Virus record (IMG/VR): IMGVR_UViG_3300035698_020072
Location: 1 to 55,704 of that record
Origin: a virus
Reading direction: 5' to 3' (one strand)
DNA: 55,704 nt
Part shown: piece after piece, positions 2,876 through 47,882 of the stretch
Layout: the number at the start of each line of letters is the position of its first letter
How positions within the stretch are numbered: position 1 is the stretch's first letter
Notes under the pieces: model-generated
What the model saw: the letters and a program-made list of their open reading frames with translations, nothing else
The model's database searches: none
What the model was told of the DNA's origin: nothing
Made by a program: the position numbers and the translations under genes

Positions 2876-3867
2876 TTGACAAGAACCTCCTTGAAGATTT
2901 TATTCCACTGTTTAATAAATCTCTTTATCCCAAACCTCTTAACAACAATCTCTCTTCCCGCATTTCCCATTTTTTTACACAACATCTCATTATCAAGAAG
3001 CCTACCTATGCCATCCTTTAATTCTTCAGGATCGTTTGACCATATGCCGTTCTTCCCGTTTTCCGCAAACTCAGATAGGGCTTCATTAACGGTGCTCACA
3101 ACTGGCATCCCTGTAGACATAGCTTCCAAGATCGTCATTGGAAAAGTAGAGTGGGTTGATGGATTAAAGTAAACCCTGTCGTTCTGATAAAAACCAACCA
3201 GTTCCTCAAAGCTACTGGCAACTTGACTCAATCCCGGCGTTTTGCCAACAATATGAATTGCGTCCTTGTCAACACCCTCCAACACCCTCTTCCAAAGGTG
3301 GTAGCCAGTGTCGGCGGCTCGGTTAACGAAGTCATTGCTTACCGTCAGGACTCTCCTATCTCTACCACCATACCCGACAAACTCATTCTCGTCAACAACC
3401 TGTTCTATTATGGACATGGGCAACTTAGAACCCTTGTATCCCCAAGTGTTTCTTGCCTCCTTGGTAATAAAAACCTTGTATGTCGATAGGTCTTGCTTGA
3501 CGATTTCCTTCTTGGCCTTCTTGGTAATGCTGTCTGGGGGGAGTGTGTGCATCATCGAGACAACGGGAATGTTGTTTTGTCTGCCTATTTTGAATCCCTT
3601 CTCGGCTTGAGACATTGTTTGGGACAAGATCACGTCAATTCCATCCATCTGACCCAACTGTTCGTCTTTTATCTCGCATATATTACGAGGCAACACCCTG
3701 TAGTCGGTGTCCCACATTTTCCCTTCCGGAGCAGGAACATGGTAAAAATGATGTCCTGTTTTTGCTAACTGAGACTGCCACCCCTCGTGTGTTGAGAACG
3801 AAAGGATGTTCAGTGGCTCGTCTTTGTCTCTATTTATGGCTCTACAGATAGACGTGAATCTATTCAA
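2872..3867 (-). CDS. GT4-like (GT-B fold) glycosyltransferase
   Basis: 331 residues. The N-terminal Rossmann half contains NILSFSTHEGWQSQL. The C-terminal half has the GT4 signature region: VYFNPSTHSTFPMTILEAMS followed by TGMPVVST, which carries the conserved Glu that binds the nucleotide-sugar diphosphate. It is a paralogue of the gene at 5647-6579, which starts MNILTFTTHEPWQ and has the same STFP..VIEAM segment. The ribosome binding site GGAG supports ATG 3867. The donor sugar and acceptor are unknown. Confidence 0.88.
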   Translation of the reverse strand: MNRFTSICRAINRDKDEPLNILSFSTHEGWQSQLAKTGHHFYHVPAPEGKMWDTDYRVLPRNICEIKDEQLGQMDGIDVILSQTMSQAEKGFKIGRQNNIPVVSMMHTLPPDSITKKAKKEIVKQDLSTYKVFITKEARNTWGYKGSKLPMSIIEQVVDENEFVGYGGRDRRVLTVSNDFVNRAADTGYHLWKRVLEGVDKDAIHIVGKTPGLSQVASSFEELVGFYQNDRVYFNPSTHSTFPMTILEAMSTGMPVVSTVNEALSEFAENGKNGIWSNDPEELKDGIGRLLDNEMLCKKMGNAGREIVVKRFGIKRFIKQWNKIFKEVLVK

Positions 3868-3876
3868 TGTGTTCTC

Positions 3877-4353
3877 CTAAAGATCATAGATAGTAACTTG
3901 AACGTCTTTTTCGCACAATGCTTTTTTAATAATTGGTTCCATTTTGTCCCATGTTCCACCAGCTAATCCACATCCAATTCGTGGCATATGAACTGGGAGA
4001 TTATTGTTTTCTACAGAGAAGTTACAAACCTTTTCTAATCCTGTTTTAATTGCATCGTATCTTATAGGCAGGATACCATCAAACGGATAAATACCGTCTT
4101 GTCCTATAATGTTGGCGACCCAAAGGCTCGATCCCACCTCAACAAACTGAACATTCCCTACTACAAACTTGTTAATCGCAAGAGATGGTGGAAAATTATA
4201 CCAAGAAAGATATTTATTTTTAGCTTTTGGGTGTTTTTTTGACAAGGCTAACACAAACCCCTTTCCCCATTTGCCAACATTGTTGCAGCAATGAGCTATT
4301 ATTCCATAATCAGGACTGGTTGCATCTCCACTAACATAGCGTATTGGTTTCAA
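3877..4353 (-). CDS. Macro domain protein (ADP-ribose binding/hydrolysis)
   Basis: 158 residues covering one macro domain. Visible family features are YVSGDATSP at the N-terminus, the ADP-ribose loop IIAHCCNNVGKWGKGF, and PRIGCGLAGGTW near the C-terminus. Known relatives bind ADP-ribose, remove ADP-ribose from proteins or dephosphorylate ADP-ribose 1''-phosphate. The start is TTG 4353, chosen because AAGGAG lies 8 nt upstream and no in-frame ATG exists near it. A consensus promoter lies directly upstream, so this is the first gene of a transcription unit. A role in reversing host ADP-ribosylation or handling tRNA-splicing products is inference. Confidence 0.9.
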   Translation of the reverse strand: MKPIRYVSGDATSPDYGIIAHCCNNVGKWGKGFVLALSKKHPKAKNKYLSWYNFPPSLAINKFVVGNVQFVEVGSSLWVANIIGQDGIYPFDGILPIRYDAIKTGLEKVCNFSVENNNLPVHMPRIGCGLAGGTWDKMEPIIKKALCEKDVQVTIYDL

Positions 4354-4372
4354 ATTTTATTCTCCTTAGTCT

Positions 4373-4400
4373 ATTATACGCTTTTTTCTTCAAATGTCAA
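4373..4400 (-). promoter_or_regulatory. Sigma70-like promoter before macro domain gene
   Basis: On the minus strand TTGACA (4400-4395), a 16-nt spacer and TATAAT (4378-4373) followed by AGA. The -35 box overlaps the last codons of the gene at 4390-4941. It matches three other promoters in this window (near 28480, 46615 and 50120) in the spacer end CG and the TATAATAGA core. Confidence 0.85.
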
Positions 4401-4941
4401 GTTCAAATTTTACCTCTTTTACGGCAAACTCGCCAGGATCACCCATGAACCCATCTCCCATGCAGTTCCATGGTCTTGGGAAGAGGACAGATAGTCCACC
4501 ATTTTTTTCAAATTCTTCTATGTTTTTTTCATAATCATCTACCAAAACTGTATTTGGCTTGGCGAAAAGAGACTTGTATTTACAAAACGCATACTCTCTA
4601 AACCCATTTCCAAACCTGTCCTGAAGCCACATTAGTTTTCCCGAAACAGATCTTGGATGTGGCATTGGTGTTGTCAAAAAAATCACCCTTGCAATTTTCG
4701 ACAGTTCTTCATACATCTTCTTAAACCAAGGATATTCTGGCATACTCCTCCACCAGTCTTCTCCGAAACCCTCTATCCATGTCTTGAACTCACCTTCGGG
4801 CATGCCAATGACTTTGCTTACTTCGTATTCTCCAGAAGGCCAGTTGTCGATGTCTACCTTGTAATCCATGTGGGCTACAACTTGTCCAACGAAGTCGCAA
4901 CACACGCCGTCCATGTCGAGATAAATTATTTTTTCAGACAT
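4390..4941 (-). CDS. 5'(3')-deoxyribonucleotidase-like HAD phosphatase
   Basis: 183 residues. The N-terminal motif I, YLDMDGVCCDF, has the nucleophile and acid Asp of HAD phosphatases. Motif II is VIFLTTPMP, and motif III is the late VLVDDYEKN with paired Asp. The size and the DGVCCDF form fit the 5'(3')-deoxyribonucleotidase group, which dephosphorylates dNMPs. It is adjacent to ThyX, which suggests a dNTP-pool role. A T4-like pseT phosphatase activity is less likely because no kinase domain is fused. Confidence 0.85.
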   Translation of the reverse strand: MSEKIIYLDMDGVCCDFVGQVVAHMDYKVDIDNWPSGEYEVSKVIGMPEGEFKTWIEGFGEDWWRSMPEYPWFKKMYEELSKIARVIFLTTPMPHPRSVSGKLMWLQDRFGNGFREYAFCKYKSLFAKPNTVLVDDYEKNIEEFEKNGGLSVLFPRPWNCMGDGFMGDPGEFAVKEVKFELDI

Positions 4942-4943
4942 GT

Positions 4944-5645
4944 CTACTCCGTTTCCTCTATCAGATCTCCAAAGACCTCGGGAAGCAGTTCGGCAAACTT
5001 ATACAAAATCCCAAGCATTATTTCCCTGATTTGCCACTGAGCATGTTCGTTTAGCGCTCTTTCCTTGAATACGTGTCTCCACATTCTCAAATTAAACGTC
5101 ATTGCTAATTCTGTTTTGGTTGCATTTGGCAGAATACATCTTGCATCTTCTGGTGGAATGTCAATTTTGCGCAAAGCAAGATATTTATCATAAGCACTTG
5201 CTACTTGATTTAAAAATATAACCTGAGATGTTTGATCAACATTATTATCTCCATGTTTGTTTGCCCACTGAAAAGGAGATTCGCCATTAACATATATTCC
5301 TTCGTCAAGCCCTATTGTTTTTGGACATATGACCATAAACTCCTTTTTGCCATAATCTACATACCTCTGTGACTCCTGCGATATCGCGCATAATCTATGT
5401 CTCACCAACTGATGACTACACGATCTGTCGCAAATTATCCTAGCTGTTATTGCACAATGCTCTATTACGGATTCATGTCCTTTTCTTATGATGCCCTTAA
5501 TAAATTTTTCTGCCGAGTCTTTTGTAATTTTGTCTTCGCTTTTATAACATGTTTTCCCACATTTCTCAATAAGTTTTGCGTAATCTTTGATATGTTCTAA
5601 CGGCGTAACAATTTCAAACCTTGGTTTAACAACTTTAATATCCAC
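4944..5645 (-). CDS. thyX: Flavin-dependent thymidylate synthase ThyX
   Basis: 233 residues, the normal length for ThyX, which methylates dUMP to dTMP using methylene-tetrahydrofolate, FAD and NADPH. The signature loop is RHRLCAISQESQRY, matching RHRxxSxNxxSxRY with Ile-Ser-Gln in the middle. Upstream are HESVIEHCAITARI (helix facing the active site) and RSCSHQLVRHR. Near the C-terminus, RMWRHVFKERALNEHAQWQI matches the substrate-binding helix. It lies next to a deoxyribonucleotidase gene and amid glycosyltransferase genes, an unusual position for a nucleotide gene. Confidence 0.97.
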   Translation of the reverse strand: MDIKVVKPRFEIVTPLEHIKDYAKLIEKCGKTCYKSEDKITKDSAEKFIKGIIRKGHESVIEHCAITARIICDRSCSHQLVRHRLCAISQESQRYVDYGKKEFMVICPKTIGLDEGIYVNGESPFQWANKHGDNNVDQTSQVIFLNQVASAYDKYLALRKIDIPPEDARCILPNATKTELAMTFNLRMWRHVFKERALNEHAQWQIREIMLGILYKFAELLPEVFGDLIEETE

Positions 5646-5646
5646 G

Positions 5647-6579
5647 CTATTCTCCTAAAACTTTTTTCCAATTATCCCTGAAACTTTCAAACGAAAAACA
5701 TTTGTCAAAACACTCATGCGATTTCTCAGACAACATTGTCCTGTATTCATCATTCTCTATGCAGTTTGAAATAGCACTTCTTATCTTGAAAACATCATGT
5801 CCGCCCACAAAATATTTCATCCATTCCTTCATTGGTTCATTATCAAGACAAACAACGGGTGCGCCAACAGCCATGGCTTCTATGACCACCGTGGGGAAAG
5901 TTGAGTACTTTGTTGTGTTAAAGTAACACGCACAGTTCTGATAGTATACGAGAAGCTTTTTTTGTGATGCGGGGCTTGACATTTTATCGTTGTTTCCTAT
6001 GAGCTTGACGTTCTTACTCCATGTTGAACCCAGAATCTGTTCCCACTCGGCATAGCCCAAAAGACAACCTCTCTCTTTGAAGTCGTCTGCTACTGTTAAC
6101 ACGTAACTGTCGTTGTTGGCTTCATACGACCTTGGGAAAAGCGTAGGTGAGCACGTATGCCCGACTATTTGACATTCGTCTGCCCTATACATCCATTCTC
6201 GTGCCTGATATGCTGTGGTAAAAACCTTCTTGTCCGACTCGTCTCCACCTTTTGCTTCGATCATATGGTGTTCTTTCCAAAATGGTAGCGGCAGACAGTG
6301 TTCCATCTCTATCCACATGGCACTTCTTAGTCGCTTGTCTATCTCTCTCAGGCTTTTCGTCGCATAGCGTTGCTCATAGGCAGTGTGAGACATTATGACG
6401 TCTATTCCCATGTTGGTGGGATCGTTAATCTCCACAAAGTTTCTCGGAAGTGGTCTGATGTTATTCCTCCAGCCCTTGCGACGCTCTGGGCTTTTTAACG
6501 AGTAGAACATATGCTCTGGGAAGGCTTCAGACAACGTGTATTGCCAAGGCTCGTGAGTCGTAAACGTTAATATATTCAA
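5647..6579 (-). CDS. GT4-like glycosyltransferase
   Basis: 310 residues. It begins MNILTFTTHEPWQYTL, like the paralogue at 2872-3867, and has the C-terminal GT4 region YFNTTKYSTFPTVVIEAMAV followed by GAPVVCLD. In this family the Glu in the VIEAM segment contacts the donor sugar nucleotide. It has a short N-terminal domain compared with typical GT4 enzymes of 350-400 residues. Acceptor is unknown. Two paralogues with conserved start and active-site segments in one block point to gene duplication in the phage lineage. Confidence 0.86.
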   Translation of the reverse strand: MNILTFTTHEPWQYTLSEAFPEHMFYSLKSPERRKGWRNNIRPLPRNFVEINDPTNMGIDVIMSHTAYEQRYATKSLREIDKRLRSAMWIEMEHCLPLPFWKEHHMIEAKGGDESDKKVFTTAYQAREWMYRADECQIVGHTCSPTLFPRSYEANNDSYVLTVADDFKERGCLLGYAEWEQILGSTWSKNVKLIGNNDKMSSPASQKKLLVYYQNCACYFNTTKYSTFPTVVIEAMAVGAPVVCLDNEPMKEWMKYFVGGHDVFKIRSAISNCIENDEYRTMLSEKSHECFDKCFSFESFRDNWKKVLGE

Positions 6580-6595
6580 AGAAAATACTCCTATG

Positions 6596-7717
6596 TTATT
6601 GTTTTGACAAAATTTCTTCTATTGTCTTAAGGTATTTTTCTCCAACAACGTCATAAGCATATTTGTAAGAGTTCTCCCTGCACTTAATGCTCATTCTTTC
6701 CGTTTCCGTGCTGTCCATATTATATGCTCTGAGCATGCATTCTCTTAGTGACATTATGTCAATCTGATTCCACAACTGATCTCCGCGATAAAGATGTTCG
6801 GGCGCACACTCATGCATTCCAATCACGGGATGTTTTCTACTCTTAACTATTAGTGCCGTTTCGGGACTAAGGTATTCACTCATGCCACCAAAGTTCGGTG
6901 AAATTATCACATTACCAAAAGCCATGGCGTCAAACACTGGCAGGTTCCAACTTTCTCCCCGACTTGAACACACGTATGTGTCAAACGTATTGTGCATTGC
7001 GGCAATCTCTTCTTCGTTCACGCTACTGGGATTAATCATAAGTGCTGGATAGTTTTTAAACCTGAGTGTTTCCTTCATCTTGTTTATCAGATCTATTACG
7101 GCTCTTCTCGTAACTCTTTCGTTCTTTCCGGTTATGTGCAAGAATAACAAGACGTCACTCATGTCCTGAAACGTGGTGAAATATGCCAATATGGTGTCAG
7201 CAAGACCTTTTCTTGGCGAGATTTCCGCTATGGTGTAAAACTTTTTCCTGAAGTTCCTGATGTCATCATTATCCATTACCTGTCTGTTGTTCACATAAAA
7301 GTTTATATCACAGGGAACCGGTAGGACATAGGTTGGTTTGTCCACATGGCTTTCTTTTATGGCAAGTGCATCATCTTTTGATGACGCTATTATCGCATCT
7401 ACGTGGTTGTTCAGATAGCCATCCCACATAGACCCTCTGAAATGATTTGTTTCCCAGTAAAACATGCTTATGAGCGGAGACTTTGTTTCATTAAGCTGCT
7501 CGGGAAGAGAATGTATTATAGTCGCATCTACGTTTGTCAGGCTCCGGTCTTCCATCTTGACAATTATGTCATCCATTTCGTCGTTAGATGGTGCTGCCAT
7601 TTGCAGGTGCCTTGCCGCTACGTTTATTCCCGCCGCATCAAGAGACAGCAATATTCGCCTTGCCGCATATGAGTATCCACTACAATCTCGATAGTTTCCG
7701 ATGAATGCTATCTTCAT
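6596..7717 (-). CDS. GT4 family glycosyltransferase
   Basis: 373 residues from ATG 7717, which has AAAGGAG 7 nt upstream; the open frame continues nine codons further but without a site. The N-terminus MKIAFIGNYRDCSGYSYAAR is a GT-B donor/acceptor loop with the Gly-rich turn. The C-terminal domain has FYTIAEISPRKG, YVCSSRGESWNLPVFDAMA and FGNVIISPNFGGMSEYL, typical of GT4 enzymes, with Glu in RGESWNLP. It lies in a run with the larger GT4 gene upstream. Confidence 0.93.
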   Translation of the reverse strand: MKIAFIGNYRDCSGYSYAARRILLSLDAAGINVAARHLQMAAPSNDEMDDIIVKMEDRSLTNVDATIIHSLPEQLNETKSPLISMFYWETNHFRGSMWDGYLNNHVDAIIASSKDDALAIKESHVDKPTYVLPVPCDINFYVNNRQVMDNDDIRNFRKKFYTIAEISPRKGLADTILAYFTTFQDMSDVLLFLHITGKNERVTRRAVIDLINKMKETLRFKNYPALMINPSSVNEEEIAAMHNTFDTYVCSSRGESWNLPVFDAMAFGNVIISPNFGGMSEYLSPETALIVKSRKHPVIGMHECAPEHLYRGDQLWNQIDIMSLRECMLRAYNMDSTETERMSIKCRENSYKYAYDVVGEKYLKTIEEILSKQ

Positions 7718-7727
7718 TTTTTCTCCT

Positions 7728-9413
7728 TTAGGATATAATTTCAATCTTAAAATTGTTAACCTTTTTTGAACCGTTCAAAACCACATCCCTATACCTCTCT
7801 GATTCGTTTTTCAGGTTCATTATACCCCTAAATCTTTCTATCATTCCCTCTGGTGTTACCTTCTCGTCTGGCTTTTTCTTGTCAACATTGTATCCTGCCT
7901 TAAGAGACAAAACCATTCTGCTCTTCTGGTAGTCTGTTATTATGTCGTCGTTATTGAGAAAATTATCATGGCACCAGTCAACAAACTCTTCTGCACTGTT
8001 GGTGTGAGGTGCCTGATCTGCCTTTGGTTTTATGATACTAATAGGCGACTCCCACGTTTCTCCTACGGGATCAACTTCTATTTCGTCTATGATTTTCTCC
8101 CATGTTTCAATGGAGTTCTTCCAATTATAAATCTCTTCAGCACACTCTCGGGCTTCTCTACAAAGAGTGTCATTTTCCTTTTTTGGCATGGTAAGCGTAT
8201 CGTATATTTTATCAGCAAGGTCTTCTCTTGAGAACAAGCACCTGTAGAGCATCGACTGTTGTTCCGTAAAGAATCTCTCTATTTTCACGGGTATCCCGCC
8301 TCTGTGTCTGCGCTCTTCGTTGCCTATGTCCACAACCTGTTCTTCCATTGCCGAGTAGGGAGGAGCAATAACGGGAACACCACACGCCTTGAACTCTGCG
8401 ATTGCCATCTCCTGTCCACCAGCAGTTGCGAGTTGAACAGCAAGGTCAGCGCATTGCATTATCTTGGCAAGATGCTCTCTACTAACCCCACAGTTTATGT
8501 TCGGAAGGATGGCCGTCATTTGCTTACATCGCCTACACCTTGCTTGCATGCCACTGAAGTATGACGCAAACACGTGTCCGCACTTGGAACAAACGTATGT
8601 CATCATTACCTTGTGACTATATCCGCTCCTCATAATACACTCTGGTATATCCCACCCATTGTCCGGATAAGATGTGTGCAGGTAGAACACGAGGTTCTTG
8701 GCAAGCTCTGGATTTTTGTCCTTGTATTTTTCCACAAAGATGCCCATGGTCTCAAGAAAGTCTGGGAACAATTTTCGCATCTGGTTTCGTGAGACAAACG
8801 ATACGATTTTAAGATTTGGGTCTATTCCAAGTTCTTCTCTCAGCTTCCTCTTGTCTTCTGTGGGCTTAAACAGGTCCAACTCAACCCCTGCCTGTGCAAC
8901 TCCGGCAACGTTTATGCTGCCATTAGACTGATCCTCAATAACCTCTTTTCCAAAGTGGCTATATGTCAAAACCCTATCTACTCTTTTATATATGTCCATC
9001 CATTCGTCTCTCTGTGGATATGAGTCAATAGCTGGCATGACTATGTGCTTGAAAAACCTCCTGTATGGAGAGTTGGGTTGATAGGAAAAATACCAAGGGT
9101 CTCTCCAGTCAATCACTATGTCAGCTTTCCACTCTAAGGCTACCTTGTCAAAACAGGCTGCTCCGAACTGGTTGGCACGATTGGAGTTGTATATCGCCGT
9201 TGCCTCTTGATCTGACGGATGAGGGATTACGGGGAAGACCTTCCATGGCAAATCCCAGATTCGACTGTCTCCGGGCTTGCAGTATGCTGCCAATGACGCT
9301 ATTTCATACTTGTCTTTATCGAATAGTGCCGTTATGAGATTCTTTCCGTAGACGGCAAAGCCACTATTCAGTGCTGAAAACTCTGTGACAAAAAGGATTC
9401 TTTTTTTACGCAT
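7728..9413 (-). CDS. Large GT4 family glycosyltransferase with inserted zinc ribbon
   Basis: 561 residues, longer than the usual 350-400 for GT4. The N-terminus ILFVTEFSALNSGFAVYGKN is a GT-B opening. Midway is a four-Cys insert, CSKCGHVFASYF...CRRCK, that looks like a zinc ribbon. The later segment LATAGGQEMAIAEFKACGVP carries the GT4 Glu motif. About 100 extra C-terminal residues are of unknown function. The insert may position a substrate or partner; this is inference. It is followed closely by the next GT4 gene at 6596-7717. Confidence 0.9.
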   Translation of the reverse strand: MRKKRILFVTEFSALNSGFAVYGKNLITALFDKDKYEIASLAAYCKPGDSRIWDLPWKVFPVIPHPSDQEATAIYNSNRANQFGAACFDKVALEWKADIVIDWRDPWYFSYQPNSPYRRFFKHIVMPAIDSYPQRDEWMDIYKRVDRVLTYSHFGKEVIEDQSNGSINVAGVAQAGVELDLFKPTEDKRKLREELGIDPNLKIVSFVSRNQMRKLFPDFLETMGIFVEKYKDKNPELAKNLVFYLHTSYPDNGWDIPECIMRSGYSHKVMMTYVCSKCGHVFASYFSGMQARCRRCKQMTAILPNINCGVSREHLAKIMQCADLAVQLATAGGQEMAIAEFKACGVPVIAPPYSAMEEQVVDIGNEERRHRGGIPVKIERFFTEQQSMLYRCLFSREDLADKIYDTLTMPKKENDTLCREARECAEEIYNWKNSIETWEKIIDEIEVDPVGETWESPISIIKPKADQAPHTNSAEEFVDWCHDNFLNNDDIITDYQKSRMVLSLKAGYNVDKKKPDEKVTPEGMIERFRGIMNLKNESERYRDVVLNGSKKVNNFKIEIIS

Positions 9414-9459
9414 TTATGTTCTCCATAACAAATATATTAATTGTGTTCGTTGGTGTTTT

Positions 9460-9999
9460 TCACCATTTTTCAAGCACATCTTTTATACAGGTTGCGATGC
9501 GTTCAGAAGCATCTTTTACCGTAGTTTCTTTTAAACTGAAGGTATAGTTGTCGTCTGCAAGAAGCCCCAACGTGGCCATGGTTTTGATTCCACGATCACG
9601 GTCAGCCTTATTTGTCGAACCGTATCCCTTAATGACAACATTGACTATTGTTACTCCGTTCTGTTTTTCCAAATCCGTGGGGTTTATTGTGATAGTTACA
9701 TTAACCCATGCTCCCTTAGCTGTGTCCACGGCATAAAGACGCACTTGATTGTTTTCAACATCTGGAAGGTCTTCATCCATGGGTTCTTTTAGCCACTCTC
9801 CCATTTCAAGAGCAATTTCGTCATCATCCCCACAAACATCGAAGGTGCTACCTAAGACCTGCATGATAGGCATACACCCACTCGTGCTTTCTTTTCTTGA
9901 CGTCTTTGATATTTGCTTGAGAAACCTTACTTTGTCTTCATCGAGATCCATTTCAAACCCTGTCGTGCCATCACACCCTATTAGTTTTATAAGTATCAT
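9460..9999 (-). CDS. Hypothetical protein within glycosyltransferase block
   Basis: 179 residues, acidic, without any motif I can name. The N-terminal part is rich in Asp and Glu (DLDEDKVRF, CGDDDEIALEMGEW). The central part, WVNVTITINPTDLEKQNGVT, looks like alternating beta strands. No signal peptide or membrane segment is seen. The start at 9999 follows the stop of the preceding GT4 gene by 1 nt and has an AGGAG upstream. It might be an accessory protein for the glycosyltransferase block, but nothing in the sequence shows it. Confidence 0.75.
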   Translation of the reverse strand: MILIKLIGCDGTTGFEMDLDEDKVRFLKQISKTSRKESTSGCMPIMQVLGSTFDVCGDDDEIALEMGEWLKEPMDEDLPDVENNQVRLYAVDTAKGAWVNVTITINPTDLEKQNGVTIVNVVIKGYGSTNKADRDRGIKTMATLGLLADDNYTFSLKETTVKDASERIATCIKDVLEKW

Positions 10000-10000
10000 A

Positions 10001-11077
10001 TTATTCTCCTAAAATATTTATAAGTTTTTGCGCCGAAGCTTCCCAACTAAACTTTTTAGCCGTTTCAATTCCATACTCATTTAAGCGAGCCTTTTCTTTT
10101 ATTTCTTTGTATGTTTTTTTCAGTGCACCTATGATGTCTTTTTTCTCAAACTCACTCCATTGCCCACTGTTGGTTCTCTCTGGAAAAAACCATCTTCCAT
10201 CTTCTGCGACTTCTTTTCCGATTGGATATATTAAGTGAGAATTAGCATTACTACAAAACTCAGTATGAGCGGTATTATAACTTGAAATACACTGGAGTCC
10301 ACACGACATGGCTTCGAGAAGACATAGATTAAAACCCTCGGCTCTGCTTACTCCAATATAGATGTCATTGCAATTATATATATAGCACAAATCCTCTTGG
10401 GTATTCACCAAAGGATGAACGAACATCTTGTGCCCGAGTTTCAACGACTTAACAAAGCCAACCCAGTCTGTCATCTCTTCCATCTTAAGAAAGGGGTTGT
10501 GGGTATAGAAGTGCAACTCAACATCATCAAACGGAGTAAAGGCAGCGGAGAAACATTCTGCAATCTCTTTGTGCATCTTCCTCTTCTCAAGCTTCCCCCC
10601 GCACATATATTTTACCGTATTTGGGCTTCTGTTCTCAACCGTTGGCATGAACACACTCCTATCTACTCCAAGTGGAACCACATGGGCAGACTTGTTGGTT
10701 CTATTCTCTATGACCCTCTTAGCCCACTCCGAGCAAACAATTATGTTCTGTGCTGAGTTCAGTTGGTGCAACTCGTTATCCCCAAAATTATCAAGCTCAA
10801 AAATGGGAAAAGCATAGTGATCTCCCTTCCCTACGTATTGAGCCAAGTCAAACTGATGCCATATTCTCACGCAGGGTGCAAGATTCCAATATGAGTTTCT
10901 TCCCCTGTCTACCATTCTCATTATGTGGTTGCGGTCAGACTGTTTGTTGAACTCCATGTTCGGTCCTATGGGAAAGAGAGACACGTTAGCGCCCTCTTTT
11001 TCAAGAGCAATGCAAAGATTAGTCGTAACCACACCATATGATAGCTTGTTAATTGGACCTATTATGTTAATAAGCAT
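10001..11077 (-). CDS. GT4 family glycosyltransferase
   Basis: 358 residues. The N-terminus INIIGPINKLSYGVVTTNL has the GT-B Gly-rich loop. The C-terminal domain shows YMCGGKLEKRKMHKEI, then IGVSRAEGFNLCLLEAMSCG, the classic E-x7-E motif with two Glu that hold the nucleotide sugar. The length is normal for GT4. This is the clearest canonical GT4 of the block. It is the first of the block in transcription order, following a short cysteine-rich gene. Confidence 0.94.
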   Translation of the reverse strand: MLINIIGPINKLSYGVVTTNLCIALEKEGANVSLFPIGPNMEFNKQSDRNHIMRMVDRGRNSYWNLAPCVRIWHQFDLAQYVGKGDHYAFPIFELDNFGDNELHQLNSAQNIIVCSEWAKRVIENRTNKSAHVVPLGVDRSVFMPTVENRSPNTVKYMCGGKLEKRKMHKEIAECFSAAFTPFDDVELHFYTHNPFLKMEEMTDWVGFVKSLKLGHKMFVHPLVNTQEDLCYIYNCNDIYIGVSRAEGFNLCLLEAMSCGLQCISSYNTAHTEFCSNANSHLIYPIGKEVAEDGRWFFPERTNSGQWSEFEKKDIIGALKKTYKEIKEKARLNEYGIETAKKFSWEASAQKLINILGE

Positions 11078-35506: not shown

Positions 35507-37171
35507 CTATTTCATCTTCAAACCATATATCTTGTTGTCAGCATAGAACATTACGTCATTCCCATTGCTGCACAGCCTCATGTTTCCATCTATGTTGTCG
35601 TCTTGTATAAGTTTTACTTTGTTTATGTTGTTGCTCTTGAAAATTTCAACCTCTTCGTTCTCATTAATATACACACAAACACCGTTCTCAAGCACCGTAA
35701 AGTTCAAGTTATATCCCTGAACGTCTTTGATTATTCTCGGAGGTGCTTCATTATTTAGTGAATAAACGAACTTATCATATCGTCCGTTCTTGGAGCCAAC
35801 GACCATCAATATGTCTTTTTCATACTTACCGTTTATGATCTTATATCCATCGAGTTCCTTGAGTCTCTTTTGGACGCAGGAGCCAGGCTTGGGAAACACA
35901 GACGCATAGTATGTACCCAGTACGCTCTGTATGGCTACACCCGTGAACATTTGGGTTGCCTTTTCCATTACGGTTCCGACGAGATTAGCAGCGACCATGG
36001 GCTTGTGCTCTGAACCCATGAACTGAAGCTCTAATATCTTATCTGCATTTTTCGCATATATTCTTCCCGAGCTAAACATTATTTTTTCCGCACTGCACTC
36101 GTTCATGTTTACCCATTGCTGTTGTTTGAGGTTAAAGACAGTCAGTTTACCATCAAGAACATCTATGGAAAACGGTGTGGAACCATAGTAGTATACAAGC
36201 CCAGAAGTTTTGCCCTTAACGTGTTTCTTTTTGTCAAAAACATACCCTTTGTCGCACACAACACAGTCTTGTCCGTAATTGCACACGTAATCTTTTATCT
36301 TCCAGTAGGACTCAAACAGTTCTTTTATTTCAAAACTATTGCTCGACTTAGATATTATGGTCTGTGGGATTATCTCCACGACGAAACCGTCTTCAAATGG
36401 CGGCACTCCACGATACCCTCTTTCGAACACGGACTCATACCACTTCTTGTAGTTCTCGGGAATAATGTTGAGTGACATACAGCTTTTGGGCACACTTACG
36501 TCCTTGTTGAAAACCGACATGTTCTTAATCATTCTCGCATCAAACCCCTTCAGCGATGAGTGTTTTCCCTTGTATGGATGTATGCCAACGAGCAACTGAA
36601 AACTTACTATGGCAAAAGAAAACCAATCTGTGTTAGTGCTGAACACATTCTTCTCGGAATGCCTGTCTCTTATGCTATCCATTATGGCCGTGGAAGGATA
36701 GTTTTTGGTTTGGTATGAATCAACGTCTATGAAGTATATTTTTTTAAACTTGTGATCACTTAATAGGTTCAGTTCGTTCAGATCTACAATGAGAATATTT
36801 TTTTCGTGGATATATTTGATTGTCTCCTGCATGTTCCTCAACAACCCGAAAGACATCTCTCCGGTGATGTTAAACCTGTCCTTAAAAGCCTTGGTGAACA
36901 GTTGGCACAACACTACGGTATCTGGGACATATGGCATCGTGTATCCAGCGGGCTTGCCGTTTTTATACACAACATCTTCTGGGCTTATGACACTTTTATT
37001 CTTAAGGACCGACAGTTCGTTAATCTTCTTCAGGTTTATCATCCTCTTGGGATCACCATATATCTTATAGGCAGTATGCCCCTTGGCAAAAACAGATCCT
37101 TCGCCACCGCTGGCGATGAAGTCGTTCTTGTTTAGGTTTATATTCATGCCGTTGATTTGATATTTTGACAT
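35507..37171 (-). CDS. Protein kinase-like domain with C-terminal repeat region
   Basis: About 554 residues from ATG 37171. The kinase fold shows a Gly-rich loop SGGEGSVF (22-27), a Lys in AYKIY (36), and IVDLNELNLL with Asp130 and Asn135 as in HRD...N. A later FIDVDSYQ (Asp149/151) replaces DFG. The C-terminal 300 residues repeat strands and Gly (e.g. YYYGSTPFSIDVLDGKLTVF), as in beta-propellers. Its neighbours are PP2C and VWA genes, matching a TerY-P-type triad. It may phosphorylate a partner; targets unknown. Confidence 0.85.
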   Translation of the reverse strand: MSKYQINGMNINLNKNDFIASGGEGSVFAKGHTAYKIYGDPKRMINLKKINELSVLKNKSVISPEDVVYKNGKPAGYTMPYVPDTVVLCQLFTKAFKDRFNITGEMSFGLLRNMQETIKYIHEKNILIVDLNELNLLSDHKFKKIYFIDVDSYQTKNYPSTAIMDSIRDRHSEKNVFSTNTDWFSFAIVSFQLLVGIHPYKGKHSSLKGFDARMIKNMSVFNKDVSVPKSCMSLNIIPENYKKWYESVFERGYRGVPPFEDGFVVEIIPQTIISKSSNSFEIKELFESYWKIKDYVCNYGQDCVVCDKGYVFDKKKHVKGKTSGLVYYYGSTPFSIDVLDGKLTVFNLKQQQWVNMNECSAEKIMFSSGRIYAKNADKILELQFMGSEHKPMVAANLVGTVMEKATQMFTGVAIQSVLGTYYASVFPKPGSCVQKRLKELDGYKIINGKYEKDILMVVGSKNGRYDKFVYSLNNEAPPRIIKDVQGYNLNFTVLENGVCVYINENEEVEIFKSNNINKVKLIQDDNIDGNMRLCSNGNDVMFYADNKIYGLKMK

Positions 37172-37172
37172 A

Positions 37173-37958
37173 TTATTCACCAAAATGTATAGCGGCCATT
37201 GAAATATCATCAGAATGATTAATGTTGTTTTTCCTGCACTTCTTCAAAAATGCTCTGACTCTTCTCTTAACAAACTCTCCTGTGTAATTTTTGAATGAAG
37301 ACAACTCCTTGACCACCTCAACAACGGGCATGTCAAAAGTGTCTATCCCATCTGAACAAACTGCTACGAACTCATAATTATCTTTGGGAAGCTTAAAACC
37401 AAAAGCATCTTGATCTGCTGACATTTCCGTGGTTTCATCACCAATAAGATATCTTGTTATCTCCCTGTTCATGCCAAACTCTTCCCTATACCTATTTTCC
37501 CTGCTAAGATCCAACGAATAACTGAAATAAAATGGTGCACCAGACGGATATTCTATCTTCCAAAGGCTTATGCGTCCATCGTCGCTTTTTGCTATGACAA
37601 AACCGTCTCCAGAGGTAATTATGTTGACATAATCTCTATACTCCTCAAGATAAAACAAAGTCGTGTCAAGACAAAACCTTGATAGATTCAGGCGCTCAAC
37701 GCTTTCTACGGCATCACGTAGCGAATTATACAATAGCCTTTCGGCTCGAAAATATAGCGACGTGGAGTATTCAAGATCTATTCCCGTATTAAAAGCGCTC
37801 CTCGTGAATGCCCTTGCTCCGAAGTCCGTATCATCAGAAGATGAACATCCGTCTGATATGATTGCGACGTGATTCCCATTGTGATTAATGCCAGCGTAAG
37901 CATAGTCTTCGCAGACCATATGGGATTTGCCAATTGAAAAATGAGAATCACAATTCAT
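37173..37958 (-). CDS. PP2C-like protein phosphatase
   Basis: 261 residues. Metal-site motifs: MVCEDYAYAG near the start, AIISDGCSSSDDTDFGARAF, IITSGDGFV and a late CSDGIDTF. A final HSDDISMAAI gives the last Asp. These correspond to the PP2C manganese-binding aspartates. It removes phosphate from Ser/Thr and in TerY-P triads opposes the kinase. It overlaps the kinase gene end at 37171-37173 and is 18 nt from the VWA gene. Confidence 0.9.
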   Translation of the reverse strand: MNCDSHFSIGKSHMVCEDYAYAGINHNGNHVAIISDGCSSSDDTDFGARAFTRSAFNTGIDLEYSTSLYFRAERLLYNSLRDAVESVERLNLSRFCLDTTLFYLEEYRDYVNIITSGDGFVIAKSDDGRISLWKIEYPSGAPFYFSYSLDLSRENRYREEFGMNREITRYLIGDETTEMSADQDAFGFKLPKDNYEFVAVCSDGIDTFDMPVVEVVKELSSFKNYTGEFVKRRVRAFLKKCRKNNINHSDDISMAAIHFGE

Positions 37959-37975
37959 AGTGCACCACCCGTTCT

Positions 37976-38704
37976 TTAAAACGTAAGCGACTGAGAAGGA
38001 CCATTGGTTCCTAAAGCCTGAGACTGAGAAGAGATAGACGAAGAAACAAAAGCTGCGAGCCTGGCAAAAGTCTTGGAGTCTATCGACTTCGTGCCTACAT
38101 ACTGGGTGAAGTCCACGTCATTTTTGAATCTTTCAAGCTCATTACTGGAGTCTTGGTCAACTCCTACTCCGACAAGGATTGTCACTATGCTTTCTACGCT
38201 CTCGTCCTTCTTGATTTTTGCTACAGCCTCTGTCACTTGGGTTATCGTGTTTGTCGAGTTGTTTTCACATCCATCCGTAATGACAACAAGTATGGCATTT
38301 GCTTCGTAGTCGTTGTCAGACAAGTTCTTACCATAGACGTTAAGGGCTTCTACGGCGTTAACAGACGCATCATACAGGGACGTGCAACCACCAGGGCTTA
38401 TGAAGTCCGTGTAGTCATCTGCGTTGCATTCTCCAAGTGGCTTAAATCCGTGTGTTTCCGTCAGCTTGCTGTTAAAGTCTATGATTCTCAGCATCAAGTT
38501 GTCTGCTCTTGGAGACTTCAGGCATGCTGCCACTACGGTTCTGATGCATTCTTCCAGTTCGTCCTTATATGATGCCACGCTTCCGCTCGTGTCAAGTGCT
38601 ATGGAAACAAGAGTGTATTCTGTTGCTCCCAACTCGTCGATCTTTTTGTGCGAGAATCCATAAGGAGATACCTTAAGGACACTGTTTTCCATTCCATTTT
38701 CCAT
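37976..38704 (-). CDS. VWA domain protein (TerY-like)
   Basis: 242 residues from ATG 38704, with AAAGGA upstream; ATG 38734 lies earlier without a site. The MIDAS metal site is SIALDTSGSVA, then GGCTSLYDAS and VVITDGCEN, giving the D-x-S-x-S, Thr and Asp ligands. The C-terminal 30 residues are Ser-rich. In TerY-type systems the VWA domain binds a phosphorylated partner. Paired with PP2C and kinase genes in the same order, this suggests a signalling triad. Confidence 0.9.
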   Translation of the reverse strand: MENGMENSVLKVSPYGFSHKKIDELGATEYTLVSIALDTSGSVASYKDELEECIRTVVAACLKSPRADNLMLRIIDFNSKLTETHGFKPLGECNADDYTDFISPGGCTSLYDASVNAVEALNVYGKNLSDNDYEANAILVVITDGCENNSTNTITQVTEAVAKIKKDESVESIVTILVGVGVDQDSSNELERFKNDVDFTQYVGTKSIDSKTFARLAAFVSSSISSQSQALGTNGPSQSLTF

Positions 38705-38810: not shown

Positions 38811-39608
38811 TTACGCCATCCAATCCTTTGTGGTCGAAATCTTCATTCCCTTTGCCCCCATTTCCTTTATAAAGTCTTCTTCCAAGTTCTCAAATCCGGG
38901 AACAGGGCTACATGCATCTTCAAGCAATACGAACTTACCTATAGAGCTTTCGTCAGAGAAGTTTTCTGCCGTATCACGTAAACTGTGGGCGAGGCAATGG
39001 CTACTTGCTTCACCGGCGACGAGAATGACATCAGCTTCCTCGATTGTCTGTATGAAGCCCGTGTTTAACTGTGTCGTAACATCTTCGGGGTCTGGGACGT
39101 CTGCCTGTACGGCACTGTAATGTTCAGTCCAAGGGTTGCTGCCTTTTGTTACGTAGTTGACAACGTTGAAATCCTTTTCCCATTCCATAATGGCATCAAA
39201 CAGGGTAGAACAAACCTGCGCACCGTTACTTCCAATGAGGCAGTGTGGTGGCCATATGCACAGTGGGTATCTAGCGTTTCGTTCGAGCTTATCCACGTAT
39301 TCCGTTGCTCTCTTCTGACACCTTAAGTCACTTGCTCTCCAACTTCCAGCGTTTACATCTGAAGCCGAGATGATCGTGAAGGGATCGGGGTGTTTGCCGT
39401 CTTTGCCAACCCAAAATATAGGATGGGCGATGTCAACGTAGTGGTGACTATCCAAGGTGATATGTATGGATTTCAGCTTATCCTTAACTCTGCCGACAAA
39501 TCCAGCAAGCCTCTCCATATCTTCGTTTGCTCCGGGAACAAACAGGCTACCAGTTGGGTCACAAAAGTCATACTGCGGATCAATAACCAATAAATGAACA
39601 TTCTGCAT
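38811..39608 (-). CDS. Nicotinamidase-like cysteine hydrolase
   Basis: 265 residues. Catalytic residues fit the family: Asp10 (LLVIDPQYDF), Lys155 (VTKGSNP) and Cys205 (ASSHCLAHSL). Metal-site residues include DSHHYVDIAH (Asp53, His55/56, His62). It hydrolyses nicotinamide to nicotinate, the first step of one NAD salvage route. The adjacent gene at 39672-40097 encodes the start of nicotinate phosphoribosyltransferase, the next step. The start ATG 39608 has AAGGAG upstream. Confidence 0.9.
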   Translation of the reverse strand: MQNVHLLVIDPQYDFCDPTGSLFVPGANEDMERLAGFVGRVKDKLKSIHITLDSHHYVDIAHPIFWVGKDGKHPDPFTIISASDVNAGSWRASDLRCQKRATEYVDKLERNARYPLCIWPPHCLIGSNGAQVCSTLFDAIMEWEKDFNVVNYVTKGSNPWTEHYSAVQADVPDPEDVTTQLNTGFIQTIEEADVILVAGEASSHCLAHSLRDTAENFSDESSIGKFVLLEDACSPVPGFENLEEDFIKEMGAKGMKISTTKDWMA

Positions 39609-39671: not shown

Positions 39672-40097
39672 TTATCTGTTTTTTGGAGGTTTTAGGTCAT
39701 AAACAATACTGTTATATAACTCACTGATTGTAGCTAACAGGGGCACCTCCCAGAATATAGTATCTTTCCAAAGCCCCTTAACTTTTACGCTTAATTGTCC
39801 CTCGTTCTGCTCTATTTTAACCTGAGATAGATTATATCTGTAGTTCATAAGAAAATCAGAGTAAAATTGTGACAAAAAAGGACATTTTCTAAGCAAGAAC
39901 GCAGATTCTTTGCCTGTTAGTTTTATGTCTTCAAATTTACTAATAGCATATCTTAGTTGGTATGCAAAACCCTCTGGAAATACGATGTCGTCTCTGACTA
40001 TGAGTTTATACTCGACTTCCGTGCCTGGGAATAGCGAATAGGCAACTTGTCCCATTGTGAATTTGTATAGGTCATTTTCTAAAAAACTTTCTATCAT
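39672..40097 (-). pseudogene. Nicotinate phosphoribosyltransferase, N-terminal fragment
   Basis: 141 residues similar to the first third of PncB/NAPRT: FLENDLYKFTMGQVAYSLFP, FPEGFAYQLRYAI, FLRKCPFLSQFYSDFL as read with gaps, and FWEVPLLATISELYNSIV. The whole family is about 400 residues, and the phosphoribosyl-pyrophosphate site lies in the missing C-terminal part. The frame ends at a stop and no remaining downstream segment was found, so a deletion is likely. It may be non-functional or form part of a complex; both are inference. Confidence 0.8.
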
Positions 40098-40767: not shown

Positions 40768-40903
40768 TCTTATTCTCCGCATGTGTCGCGTGTCAAGCCT
40801 CTCGGGATTAGCCTGACTTACCCGCCAGAGATCCTTGTCCCATGGTCTGCGTCACTCTGGAATCGGTACCGGCCGCTTTTAACTAACTTGACCATAGTCC
40901 TAA

Positions 40904-40986
40904 GACTTCGGACGGGACTCGAACCCGCACCAACGCAATCGCTGCTCTACCAAAGGGCTGATCAAACCCATTAAGCTACCGAAGTC
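40904..40986 (-). ncRNA. tRNA-like structure B (83 nt) with D-loop insert and shortened anticodon arm
   Basis: On the minus strand, an 8-bp acceptor (GACTTCGG with CCGAAGTC) closes a T-arm GCGGGTTCGAGTCCCGT and a D-arm beginning TAGCTTAATGG, interrupted by about 16 nt before GTAGAGC. The position of the anticodon arm shows only a 5-bp stem with a 4-nt loop (ATTG). Canonical loop length of 7 is not found. The inserted part can form GGGT-TTGATCA-GCCC, a hairpin with a 7-nt loop. It may be a degenerate tRNA or a specialised tRNA mimic. The G at position -1 pairs with C at the discriminator position. Confidence 0.65.
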
Positions 40987-41134: not shown

Positions 41135-41205
41135 GACTCCAGTCGGGAATCGAACCCGAGTTTAGGGAGCTACCCTACCGACTAACCACTCGTCGCACTG
41201 GAGTC
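41135..41205 (-). ncRNA. tRNA-like structure A (71 nt) with five-base anticodon loop
   Basis: On the minus strand: 8-bp acceptor GACTCCAG/CTGGAGTC, D-arm CGAC-GAGTGGTTA-GTCG, T-arm TCGGG-TTCGATT-CCCGA, with only two or three variable-loop bases. The anticodon arm is TAGGG-TAGCT-CCCTA, a 5-bp stem with 5-nt loop; if opened by one pair, the loop would be GTAGCTC with AGC at the anticodon place. The total of 71 nt is short. No CCA is encoded. It may be a tRNA-like RNA that does not decode. Confidence 0.65.
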
Positions 41206-42133: not shown

Positions 42134-42474
42134 TATTTCCCTCCAAACTCTTTACTCAATCTCTCATATTGCCTTCGTCTCTTGTCCTTTGCTTTTTGTT
42201 TTCTGTTCTTAGATGTTTCTTTGGCTCTTTTTTCCTTAGCGATCCTGTCTTTTGTTTCATCGCTTGTTTCTTCTCTTTCTCCATAAAACTTCAACTCTTC
42301 TACTCCACGATCAAAAGCACCATACTCAGAAACAATATCTATATTGGTATATCCATCATCCTTAAGCTTTTCTTTTATAAAAAGTATCTCATCAACAAAG
42401 GAATCAACACGCATGCAAAAACTGCATAGCTCTATAGACTCTTCTGTTCTCTCGTTAATCATTTTCTTTTTCAT
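42133..42474 (-). CDS. Small basic-tail hypothetical protein
   Basis: 113 residues from ATG 42474 (AGGGGA upstream); the first ten codons of the open frame are shadow. It overlaps the Thg1-like gene by 20 nt. The C-terminal half is strongly basic (RAKETSKNRKQKAKDKRRRQ). It may bind RNA or another negative partner. It has one CSFCMRVD pair. Confidence 0.65.
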   Translation of the reverse strand: MKKKMINERTEESIELCSFCMRVDSFVDEILFIKEKLKDDGYTNIDIVSEYGAFDRGVEELKFYGEREETSDETKDRIAKEKRAKETSKNRKQKAKDKRRRQYERLSKEFGGK

Positions 42475-43279
42475 CCTGTTTCCCCTCAACAACTGGCTCG
42501 GCACCTTCGAAAATAACCTCCACGCGATTTACCACTGTGCTAAAGATGGGCATATCTACCTTTTCATAAGAGGTTCTCTCTACAATCAAATTCGGACTAC
42601 CATGGGCTTCGTGCATTGGTGGAAGTTTTGAAATCTCATCTGTGGTGAACATGCGTGGCATCTTTTTTCTTTGGACGTATGTTCCCCTTTTGAAGAAGGT
42701 TGAGTAGTCATTCCAGTTTATATTTTTTTCCATGAGCATGTCTTGCATTTGACTCCCATTTTTGTGCATAAGCTGATTATGAGAATACACGGACTGAGCA
42801 GCCATGGCAATGCTGTTCTTAACGGCGTCAAATTCACGCCACAACACCACGTTTGCAGCCTCGAACAACGTCGGGACAGACCAGACTCGACAATCAAACA
42901 GGGCTAACTGGTCCTTCTCTGGGAGAAACTCTGGTTTAAGCGAGTTGAAGTATGCCGTGGCCATAGACGCAAGCACTGAGCACATTTTCTGTATGCGGCC
43001 ATCAAAGAATATCTGGCTTTTGTAGCTATTACTATACCATACCAAGGTAATCTCATCTGATTGGGTATAACCAATACAGGCATTTGTTTCAGAAGTAAGC
43101 ATCTTCGTCGTGGCTACCATCAAATCTGAAAACCTTTTGTCATATGGTCTGTCAAGCCCCTTGCAGAAATTGTGGAAGCACTTACCGTCAATACGAGCAC
43201 ACACGGGCAACAGGGGTTTAAAGCGCTGACTGGCATCCATTGCCTCCAACGTCTTCATCCGATTTCCAAAATCACTCAT
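42455..43279 (-). CDS. Thg1-like 3'-5' nucleotidyltransferase
   Basis: 274 residues. Catalytic metal-binding residues follow the Thg1 numbering: Asp31-Gly32 (VCARIDGKCFHNF) and Asp76-Glu77 (YTQSDEITLVWY). Both correspond to the conserved Asp and Asp-Glu of tRNA-His guanylyltransferase. The enzyme family adds nucleotides to the 5' end of tRNAs, either G-1 of tRNA-His or as tRNA repair. It lies about 1.2 kb from tRNA-like structures that have a G-1:C pair. Substrate remains unknown. Confidence 0.9.
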   Translation of the reverse strand: MSDFGNRMKTLEAMDASQRFKPLLPVCARIDGKCFHNFCKGLDRPYDKRFSDLMVATTKMLTSETNACIGYTQSDEITLVWYSNSYKSQIFFDGRIQKMCSVLASMATAYFNSLKPEFLPEKDQLALFDCRVWSVPTLFEAANVVLWREFDAVKNSIAMAAQSVYSHNQLMHKNGSQMQDMLMEKNINWNDYSTFFKRGTYVQRKKMPRMFTTDEISKLPPMHEAHGSPNLIVERTSYEKVDMPIFSTVVNRVEVIFEGAEPVVEGKQDEKEND

Positions 43280-46639: not shown

Positions 46640-47488
46640 TTAACGAATATATTGGACGCCCTGTTTTGTCCATCCGGCAAACCCTGAAATATTATGCTCT
46701 TCAAACGAATCCGCATAGTGCATAAGATACATCTTCTTCTTCCAGTCTTCGGGAAGCGTGTTGAGATCAAAAAGTGGGGCATGCACGGCACCGGGGAAGA
46801 ACTGAACATCATGGAATATCGTGTCTGCTCTTTCGGCATAGTGCTCAAGCAGGGGAAGATCAAACTTAGTGTCACAAGTTATTAAGATGCTGTTGTTTAT
46901 GAACAGTCCATAAGAAAGGAATGATCCAGACCACCTATCTGACTGCTCGGGGATGTGGTTAGTTCGGAACATCTCGATATGAATTCCACCGACATCTACC
47001 TCGAAAATCTCTCGTGGCTGATGAACAAGCCATTGGGGGCGTATTATGCCGAAATAGTCAGCAAACCCCATTACCTTGCCGTCTGCAAGCTCCTCGTTAT
47101 ATTCCAAGCCACCACGCAGACTGTTTTCCCAAAGCACACGTTGGTATTCTTCGGCGATAACCATTTTCAATTTATTCTTTCCTTGGAAGGGAATCCCCAC
47201 ATACCTGTTCATCTGTGCAAGCTGTTCTATGCCACCAATATGGTCTCCATGGCTATGAGTTGGGAGTATGACCTCGATGTCGTATGCAGATAGCCCGGTT
47301 GTTCGGGGAAAAGCCTCCAGTGCTGTTCTTCCAAAGTCAACCATCACGTGATCTTCACCCCTGACGAGCAGGAAGTTTGTCTGATTGTGTTTTTCCGTAA
47401 ACGCAGACCCAACCCCTATGAAAAACAAACGCAACTTGTCATCATCATATGAAAACCTTATGTTCTTTTCCGAAGTTTCCCTAATCAT
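46640..47488 (-). CDS. MBL-fold metallohydrolase (possible cyclic-nucleotide phosphodiesterase)
   Basis: 282 residues from ATG 47488, with GGAGG upstream. Metal motifs are LPTHSHGDHIGG (HxHxDH) and LITCDTKFD (Asp). The N-terminus LRLFFIGVGSAFTEKHNQTN is typical of beta-lactamase-fold enzymes near RNase Z. Phage proteins of this fold include cyclic-nucleotide phosphodiesterases that counter Pycsar defence; the fold alone does not prove this. The second His motif FRTNHIPEQSD fits a ligand. Confidence 0.85.
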   Translation of the reverse strand: MIRETSEKNIRFSYDDDKLRLFFIGVGSAFTEKHNQTNFLLVRGEDHVMVDFGRTALEAFPRTTGLSAYDIEVILPTHSHGDHIGGIEQLAQMNRYVGIPFQGKNKLKMVIAEEYQRVLWENSLRGGLEYNEELADGKVMGFADYFGIIRPQWLVHQPREIFEVDVGGIHIEMFRTNHIPEQSDRWSGSFLSYGLFINNSILITCDTKFDLPLLEHYAERADTIFHDVQFFPGAVHAPLFDLNTLPEDWKKKMYLMHYADSFEEHNISGFAGWTKQGVQYIR

Positions 47489-47882
47489 TGTTTTCCTCCT
47501 CAATAACGTGGCAGTAAAAAACGGGTTCTTTTTTCATAACGGCATAAAACCTTGTCTTACACTCGCACAAGTAAACGTAATTGTTTTCTTCTATGGAAAG
47601 CTCTACTTTTTCTTCCCATTTTTCGTCTTGCCGTCCGCAACTAGGACACGTTGGAATGGCAAACACCCGTGTCTTCTCCTTTTTAATGAGTTCTATCTCG
47701 GCAACACCTTCCAGACAGTCTACGGGAACACAAACATTAGACCAAACACCATGGTCTTTATATTTTATGTTCGCCATTTTGCCATCAATACCACACAGGA
47801 TATATTTTTTGTTTTTTGCTCCGTATTGTTTGGCTAAGTGCTTGCCTTCTTCTGTGTTTAGGTTGAACATAACCTTGCTCAT
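47481..47882 (-). CDS. Hypothetical protein with zinc-ribbon pair
   Basis: 133 residues from ATG 47882 with GGAG upstream. CPSCGRQDE and LCECKTRFY give a CxxC-CxC zinc pair near the C-terminus. The N-terminal part is beta-rich. Overlaps the MBL-fold gene start by 8 nt, suggesting co-translation. Confidence 0.67.
   Translation of the reverse strand: MSKVMFNLNTEEGKHLAKQYGAKNKKYILCGIDGKMANIKYKDHGVWSNVCVPVDCLEGVAEIELIKKEKTRVFAIPTCPSCGRQDEKWEEKVELSIEENNYVYLCECKTRFYAVMKKEPVFYCHVIEEENND

Follow-up and report, generated by a model that had tools for sequence, protein, structure and literature searches.

A 55,704-base virus record from IMG/VR (IMGVR_UViG_3300035698_020072; this whole stretch is called the window here) encodes a four-gene module consisting of a nicotinamidase-like hydrolase (PncA), a VWA-domain protein, a PP2C-type phosphatase and a protein kinase with a predicted C-terminal β-propeller. 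An initial annotation of the window had grouped the last three genes as a triad resembling TerY-P systems; its range, 35507–38704, does contain those three, but it misses the nicotinamidase gene that completes the conserved unit. Judged from sequence, the four genes are intact and co-stranded, keep a fixed order across very divergent large phages, retain invariant catalytic residues and have nicotinamide adenine dinucleotide (NAD+) salvage genes as their commonest neighbors. Because the same four-gene block is found in many large phages, we suggest that these viruses control the NAD+ supply of the infected cell by phosphorylation, and we consider it moderately likely that the module subjects the opening reaction of NAD+ salvage to such control. 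Transcription of the region runs from the N-terminal domain of a nicotinate phosphoribosyltransferase (NAPRT) through the nicotinamidase-like, VWA and PP2C genes to the kinase, all on the minus strand (Table 1).

The kinase, PP2C and VWA genes form a compact group with conserved catalytic sites, as the initial annotation had described. Deep alignments back all three families, and predicted structures back two of the folds, with structure-based searches recovering a protein-kinase fold and an I-domain with a metal-ion-dependent adhesion site (MIDAS). The kinase matches Pfam Pkinase with an E value of 9.8e-6, which falls short of the family cut-off. In its AlphaFold2 (AF2) model (predicted local distance difference test score (pLDDT) of 91.7), residues 5–267 adopt the protein-kinase fold (Z of 19.7, root-mean-square deviation of 3.5, 243 aligned residues). 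The concern that homologs might lack activity-relevant residues was not borne out: G22, G23, K36, H122, D130, N135 and D149 are invariant in 60/60 aligned relatives. The C-terminal part, previously noted as repetitive, is all-β (residues ~280–553) and confidently predicted to be a β-propeller. Foldseek comparison of the whole-kinase model matched this part to BamB, Cdc4, β-TrCP and Hsv2, and we counted about seven four-stranded blades by hand from the strand order. We place the kinase start at the ATG at 37171; an in-frame ATG further upstream, at 37210, would overlap the PP2C gene. The metal-binding aspartates of the phosphatase (D18, D36, D203 and D250) are invariant in 52/52 relatives. Pfam VWA_2 matches the VWA protein only at an E value of 0.015, and its AF2 model (pLDDT of 90.5) comprises a MIDAS I-domain, for which the structure matches are themselves I-domains, followed by a C-terminal helix and a serine-rich tail. 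MIDAS residues D38, S42, T108 and D144 are invariant in 55/55 relatives, as are S221, S223 and S228 of the tail, and S40 varies conservatively between serine and threonine.

The fourth protein has a profile match to the yeast nicotinamidase 2h0r (E value of 1.9e-18), and 59 of its 63 aligned members match the PRK11609 model at E < 0.001 (best, 3.1e-15). Six residues are invariant in 63/63 members; from family knowledge and the alignment to 2h0r, we take D10, K155 and C205 to be catalytic and D53, H55 and H122 to be metal ligands. The phage homolog thus keeps the Asp–Lys–Cys catalytic residues and the metal-binding Asp and His residues of PncA/Pnc1 nicotinamidases but is ~50 residues longer, and its residues 72–116 do not align to 2h0r. 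We infer that it hydrolyzes nicotinamide, a reading indirectly supported by the adjacency of NAPRT in phages and bacteria. Set against uncoupled PncA proteins, the triad-coupled ones differ mildly at three residues and share no serine or threonine that is both conserved and specific to them, so no PncA phosphosite can be named.

The linkage of the four genes was visible in two search directions. Searched against INPHARED by megablast, the region had no match, and tblastn found four relatives in phage records (LR745208, LR756511, LR756500 and MT837596), in each of which a PncA homolog precedes the VWA, PP2C and kinase genes. Scanning viral contigs with the single VWA sequence returned no relatives, and alignment queries were required. 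The counts that follow draw on the 80 best loci of each scan, many of them from fragmentary contigs, and the E values and percentages apply to that sample. When viral contigs were scanned with the PncA alignment and the hits were combined with other fetched loci and dereplicated at 90%, 71 distinct loci resulted, of which 53 have exactly the order PncA>VWA>PP2C>kinase, the remainder being mostly rearranged or cut. The reverse scan with the kinase found all four genes, usually in that same order, in 66 of 69 distinct viral loci, so the neighborhood survey proposed in the initial annotation finds the triad conserved together. Two of the three exceptions (L200 and L205) end at a contig edge, and the third (L197) shares its record with another locus (L027), the PncA lying ~11 kb from the kinase. 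The four genes are co-stranded in 62/62 loci, with median intergenic gaps of 22, 302 and 368 bases; because gaps reach 5.5 kb at maximum, the gene order evidently outlasts the insertion of other genes. Mean identity among relatives is low, at 0.50 for PncA, 0.42 for VWA, 0.28 for PP2C and 0.32 for the kinase. Their divergence is correlated (Mantel r of 0.61–0.86, above all 999 permutations), and r remains at 0.48–0.63 for four tested pairs when the most distant branch is left out (again above all 999 permutations), both values including the effect of shared phage ancestry.

We clustered every gene lying no more than 10 kb from the kinase, with no families chosen beforehand. After the kinase (66 loci), PP2C (61), VWA (57) and PncA (54), the most frequent families were NAPRT (22), NMNAT/Nudix (19), NadE (11), NadD (11), NADAR (10) and one unlabeled opposite-strand family (10). 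LigA, an NAD+ user, recurred in seven loci; most other neighbors turn over between loci while the quartet stays. NCBIfam labels among the neighbors include nicotinate phosphoribosyltransferase, NAD+ synthase and nicotinate mononucleotide adenylyltransferase, and the five phosphoribosyltransferases that were scanned in the vicinity of the module fit nicotinate-type models. Profile searches of the 69 loci placed NAPRT within 10 kb in 27, NADAR near 11 and a complete Preiss–Handler route from nicotinamide to NAD+ in 11. As a control, we used NAPRT as an independent bait, which gave 22 phage records; these are fragments, in which an absence is not proof. Long-form PncA (E < 1e-70) was present in five of these records and the kinase in exactly the same five, with no kinase match in the other 17, several of which carry a short nicotinamidase (Fisher p of 3.8e-5). 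Because the kinase is confined to the long-form-PncA records of this sample, the triad appears to track long-form PncA and not NAD+ salvage in general. Outside phages, relatives of the module PncA adjoin NAPRT, NadE and NrtR in Burkholderiales and other bacteria, with no triad present.

These distributions also bear on a simpler explanation, a general host-takeover kinase that acts on host proteins and whose association with PncA mainly reflects shared transcription timing in one genome region. In its favor, some phage kinases are known to modify host proteins, and the quartet in the window is surrounded by numerous small genes with no assigned function. We nevertheless find this account quite improbable: order and linkage hold even though kinase identity averages ~30% and most other neighbors are replaced, the kinase occurs only with long-form PncA in the NAPRT-fetched sample, and a dedicated PP2C and VWA point to a reversible switch.

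Defenses that deplete NAD+ release nicotinamide and ADP-ribose (PMC12774641). In the mechanism that we propose for regulated salvage, PncA would convert nicotinamide to nicotinate, which phage or host NAPRT, NadD/NadM and NadE would carry on to NAD+. The kinase propeller would sense a signal, and the kinase would phosphorylate the VWA adaptor, PncA (or a different salvage enzyme) or both; PP2C would reset the switch, and the metal-dependent VWA protein would link it to its target. The likely benefit would be the rebuilding of NAD+ after TIR or SIR2 NADases split it into nicotinamide and ADP-ribose, and the switch would avoid a wasteful salvage cycle while NAD+ is plentiful by running only at need. 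The module is probably used against NAD+-depleting defenses, and the earlier suggestion that the phage counters a host system is plausible in that specific form. A more detailed version, in which the kinase–propeller circuit senses the state of NAD+ (or of ADP-ribose or nicotinamide) and toggles nicotinamidase-led NAD+ synthesis as a regulated counter-defense not described before, is one that we put forward tentatively.

Several observations weigh against regulated salvage. The phage PncA scores 32 bits against the NCBIfam PRK11609 equivalog, whose cut-off is 174. The gene order may in part be a product of shared phage ancestry and, as it is partly inherited, the loci are not independent. Long-form PncA is found without the kinase in two viral records (that of L061 and the 476-kb one of L085) and without the triad in Burkholderiales; in one further record (L038) it is accompanied by only a kinase fragment. 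NAPRT is absent within 10 kb in 42/69 loci, and the NAPRT of the window itself is truncated, at 141 residues against 372–447 in its viral relatives, 22/22 of which are full length. As the catalytic domain PF04095 was not found anywhere in the window, the pathway would here depend on a host NAPRT or on one encoded outside the fragment. The truncation may reflect a decayed gene, a domain put to another use or an artifact of assembly.

The loci without a nearby NAPRT suggest that the phage may not always use nicotinate, as would be expected if PncA served to clear nicotinamide, an inhibitor of sirtuins and ADP-ribosyltransferases. Its removal could free phage ADP-ribosylating enzymes or deprive rivals of nicotinamide, with the triad timing the step, and the NADAR genes near 11/69 modules would fit such a role. 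We regard this as unlikely: NAPRT, NadE and NadD are among the commonest neighbors, the full route is present in 11 loci, and host enzymes could use the nicotinate where the phage has no NAPRT.

The triad on its own is of a known kind, because it is homologous to and ordered like E. coli YegL–PphC–YegI. Profile comparison gave probabilities of 98.5% for YegI (kinase), 95.1% for PphC (PP2C) and 93.6% for YegL (VWA), with the same VWA>PP2C>kinase order. However, the YegI match is limited to the kinase domain, the phage kinase ending in a β-propeller. YegI is membrane-bound and autophosphorylates, PphC dephosphorylates it, and no condition promoting the expression of yegI and pphC is known (PMC13232886). 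No nicotinamidase gene was present in the ~9 kb upstream of E. coli yegI or the 3 kb beyond yegL. Actinobacterial GAP1-N2 systems likewise have a kinase with a β-strand-rich C-terminal part beside a PP2C and a stand-alone vWA (PMC7159879), but that kinase is of a kinase–zinc ribbon–β-rich type tied to GTPase conflict systems.

The resemblance to TerY-P, the basis of the initial annotation, holds in part. TerY-P systems also combine VWA, PP2C and a Ser/Thr kinase in one gene group; their kinase ends in a zinc ribbon, or, in an antiphage variant, has an OB-fold, and VWA–PP2C–kinase triads are found in defense contexts, where the OB-fold variant alone protects against phages (PMC11090510). By contrast, two CxxC motifs after residue 270, as expected for the zinc ribbon, occur in 0/57 phage kinases, the C-terminal part of the window's kinase is modeled as a propeller, and neighbor clustering revealed no recurrent Ter, restriction, helicase or nuclease gene near the module. 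The phage triad, genuinely related to known VWA–PP2C–kinase triads, is therefore not canonical TerY-P; it lies in a setting of NAD+ salvage and has a nicotinamidase as its constant partner. The same evidence bears on whether the module is a phage-borne, TerY-P-like cassette for defense or superinfection exclusion, in which the triad would be the sensor, of foreign nucleic acid or of a second phage, and PncA its metabolic effector. The defense contexts of such triads, the sequence relationship to YegL–PphC–YegI and the existence of rare bacterial copies speak for it. With a propeller in place of the expected C-terminal domain, NAD+ salvage genes as the recurrent neighbors, and PADLOC matching the kinase only weakly and the other three proteins not at all, we think it improbable, and the proposal that the triad protects the infected cell from other phages finds no support in this analysis.

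Regulated salvage can also be set beside phage enzymes that rebuild NAD+ after depletion, namely NARP1, which combines the ADP-ribose pyrophosphate synthase Adps with the Nampt-like Namat, and NadV–NadM/NadR (PMC12774641, PMC9503650). Those routes start directly from nicotinamide or ADP-ribose, whereas the phage module would proceed through nicotinate and is coupled to the triad. A systematic survey of viral NAD+ genes covers NadV, NadM and NadR and mentions neither nicotinamidase nor PP2C (PMC9503650), nor does a survey of jumbo phages (PMC7824862). In a mostly open-access literature we found no published account of the four-gene module; the parts for which we found no description are the constant pairing of the triad with a nicotinamidase and its NAD+ setting. 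VWA–PP2C–kinase triads are widespread and their targets largely unknown; the nicotinamidase that accompanies the triad in dozens of divergent phages, and also in some bacteria, offers a concrete, testable target. If regulated salvage is correct, a nicotinate-based, phosphorylation-controlled route joins the known ways in which phages rebuild NAD+, which matters because many antiphage defenses act by NAD+ depletion.

The quartet is also present in cellular sequence, both in contigs of Lachnospiraceae and in contigs of metagenome-assembled genomes (MAGs) whose assignments are to candidate phyla, Chloroflexi and Acidobacteria. Some of the MAG contigs could be viral; one Lachnospiraceae copy (L166, on a 938-kb contig) looks chromosomal, because its neighbors appear metabolic. 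In the family of Lachnospiraceae A4, the kinase occurs in 1/200 genomes, that of A4 itself, so the cellular form is rare there. Three viral contigs, each with all four genes, belong to this same distant Lachnospiraceae branch. The kinases of four Clostridia quartets (L162, L166, L170 and L161) have one CxxC motif immediately following the kinase domain; the motif is missing from most phage kinases and is possibly a trace of a TerY-P-type zinc ribbon.

Table 1. Module genes and other features of the window
Feature	Position	Strand	Length	Remarks
Protein kinase	35507..37171	-	554 aa	N-terminal protein-kinase domain; C-terminal predicted β-propeller, ~7 blades
PP2C-type Ser/Thr phosphatase	37173..37958	-	261 aa	Pfam PP2C_2, E 8.8e-7, above cut-off; E. 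coli PphC profile match
VWA-domain protein	37976..38704	-	242 aa	Intact MIDAS, Ser-rich C-terminal tail; E. coli YegL profile match
Long-form nicotinamidase-like cysteine hydrolase (PncA)	38811..39608	-	265 aa	Fourth module gene, directly upstream of VWA
Nicotinate phosphoribosyltransferase, N-terminal domain only	39672..40097	-	141 aa	NAPRTase_N, E 5.5e-28; upstream of PncA
tRNA-Pro	40903..40986			Neighbor of tRNA-Ala
Predicted tRNA-Ala	41135..41203	-		Anticodon AGC
Thg1 (tRNA-His guanylyltransferase) homolog	42458..43279	-		PF04446, E 9.2e-30
Metallo-β-lactamase-fold protein	46643..47503	-		Match to anti-Pycsar nuclease Apyc1 (PF23023, E 3.8e-28, above cut-off)
Array of at least six proteins	514..11077	-		Matches to phage glycosyltransferase families

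The major genes of the window lie on the minus strand. Products encoded in the window include a phage DNA polymerase as well as a DnaB-like helicase and an exonuclease. The Apyc1-like protein is likely the product of a second counter-defense gene of the same region. A TROVE/Ro60-like gene adjoins the quartet in only two loci, L005 at 2255–3706 (gut scaffold MT837596, from human feces; identified by eye) and the start of L277 (identified by similarity to L005), and was rejected as a general partner of the module on that count. The anticodon of the predicted tRNA-Ala is unusual for bacteria. Thg1-looking proteins, candidates judged by eye, recur in the vicinity of the module in six further phage loci.
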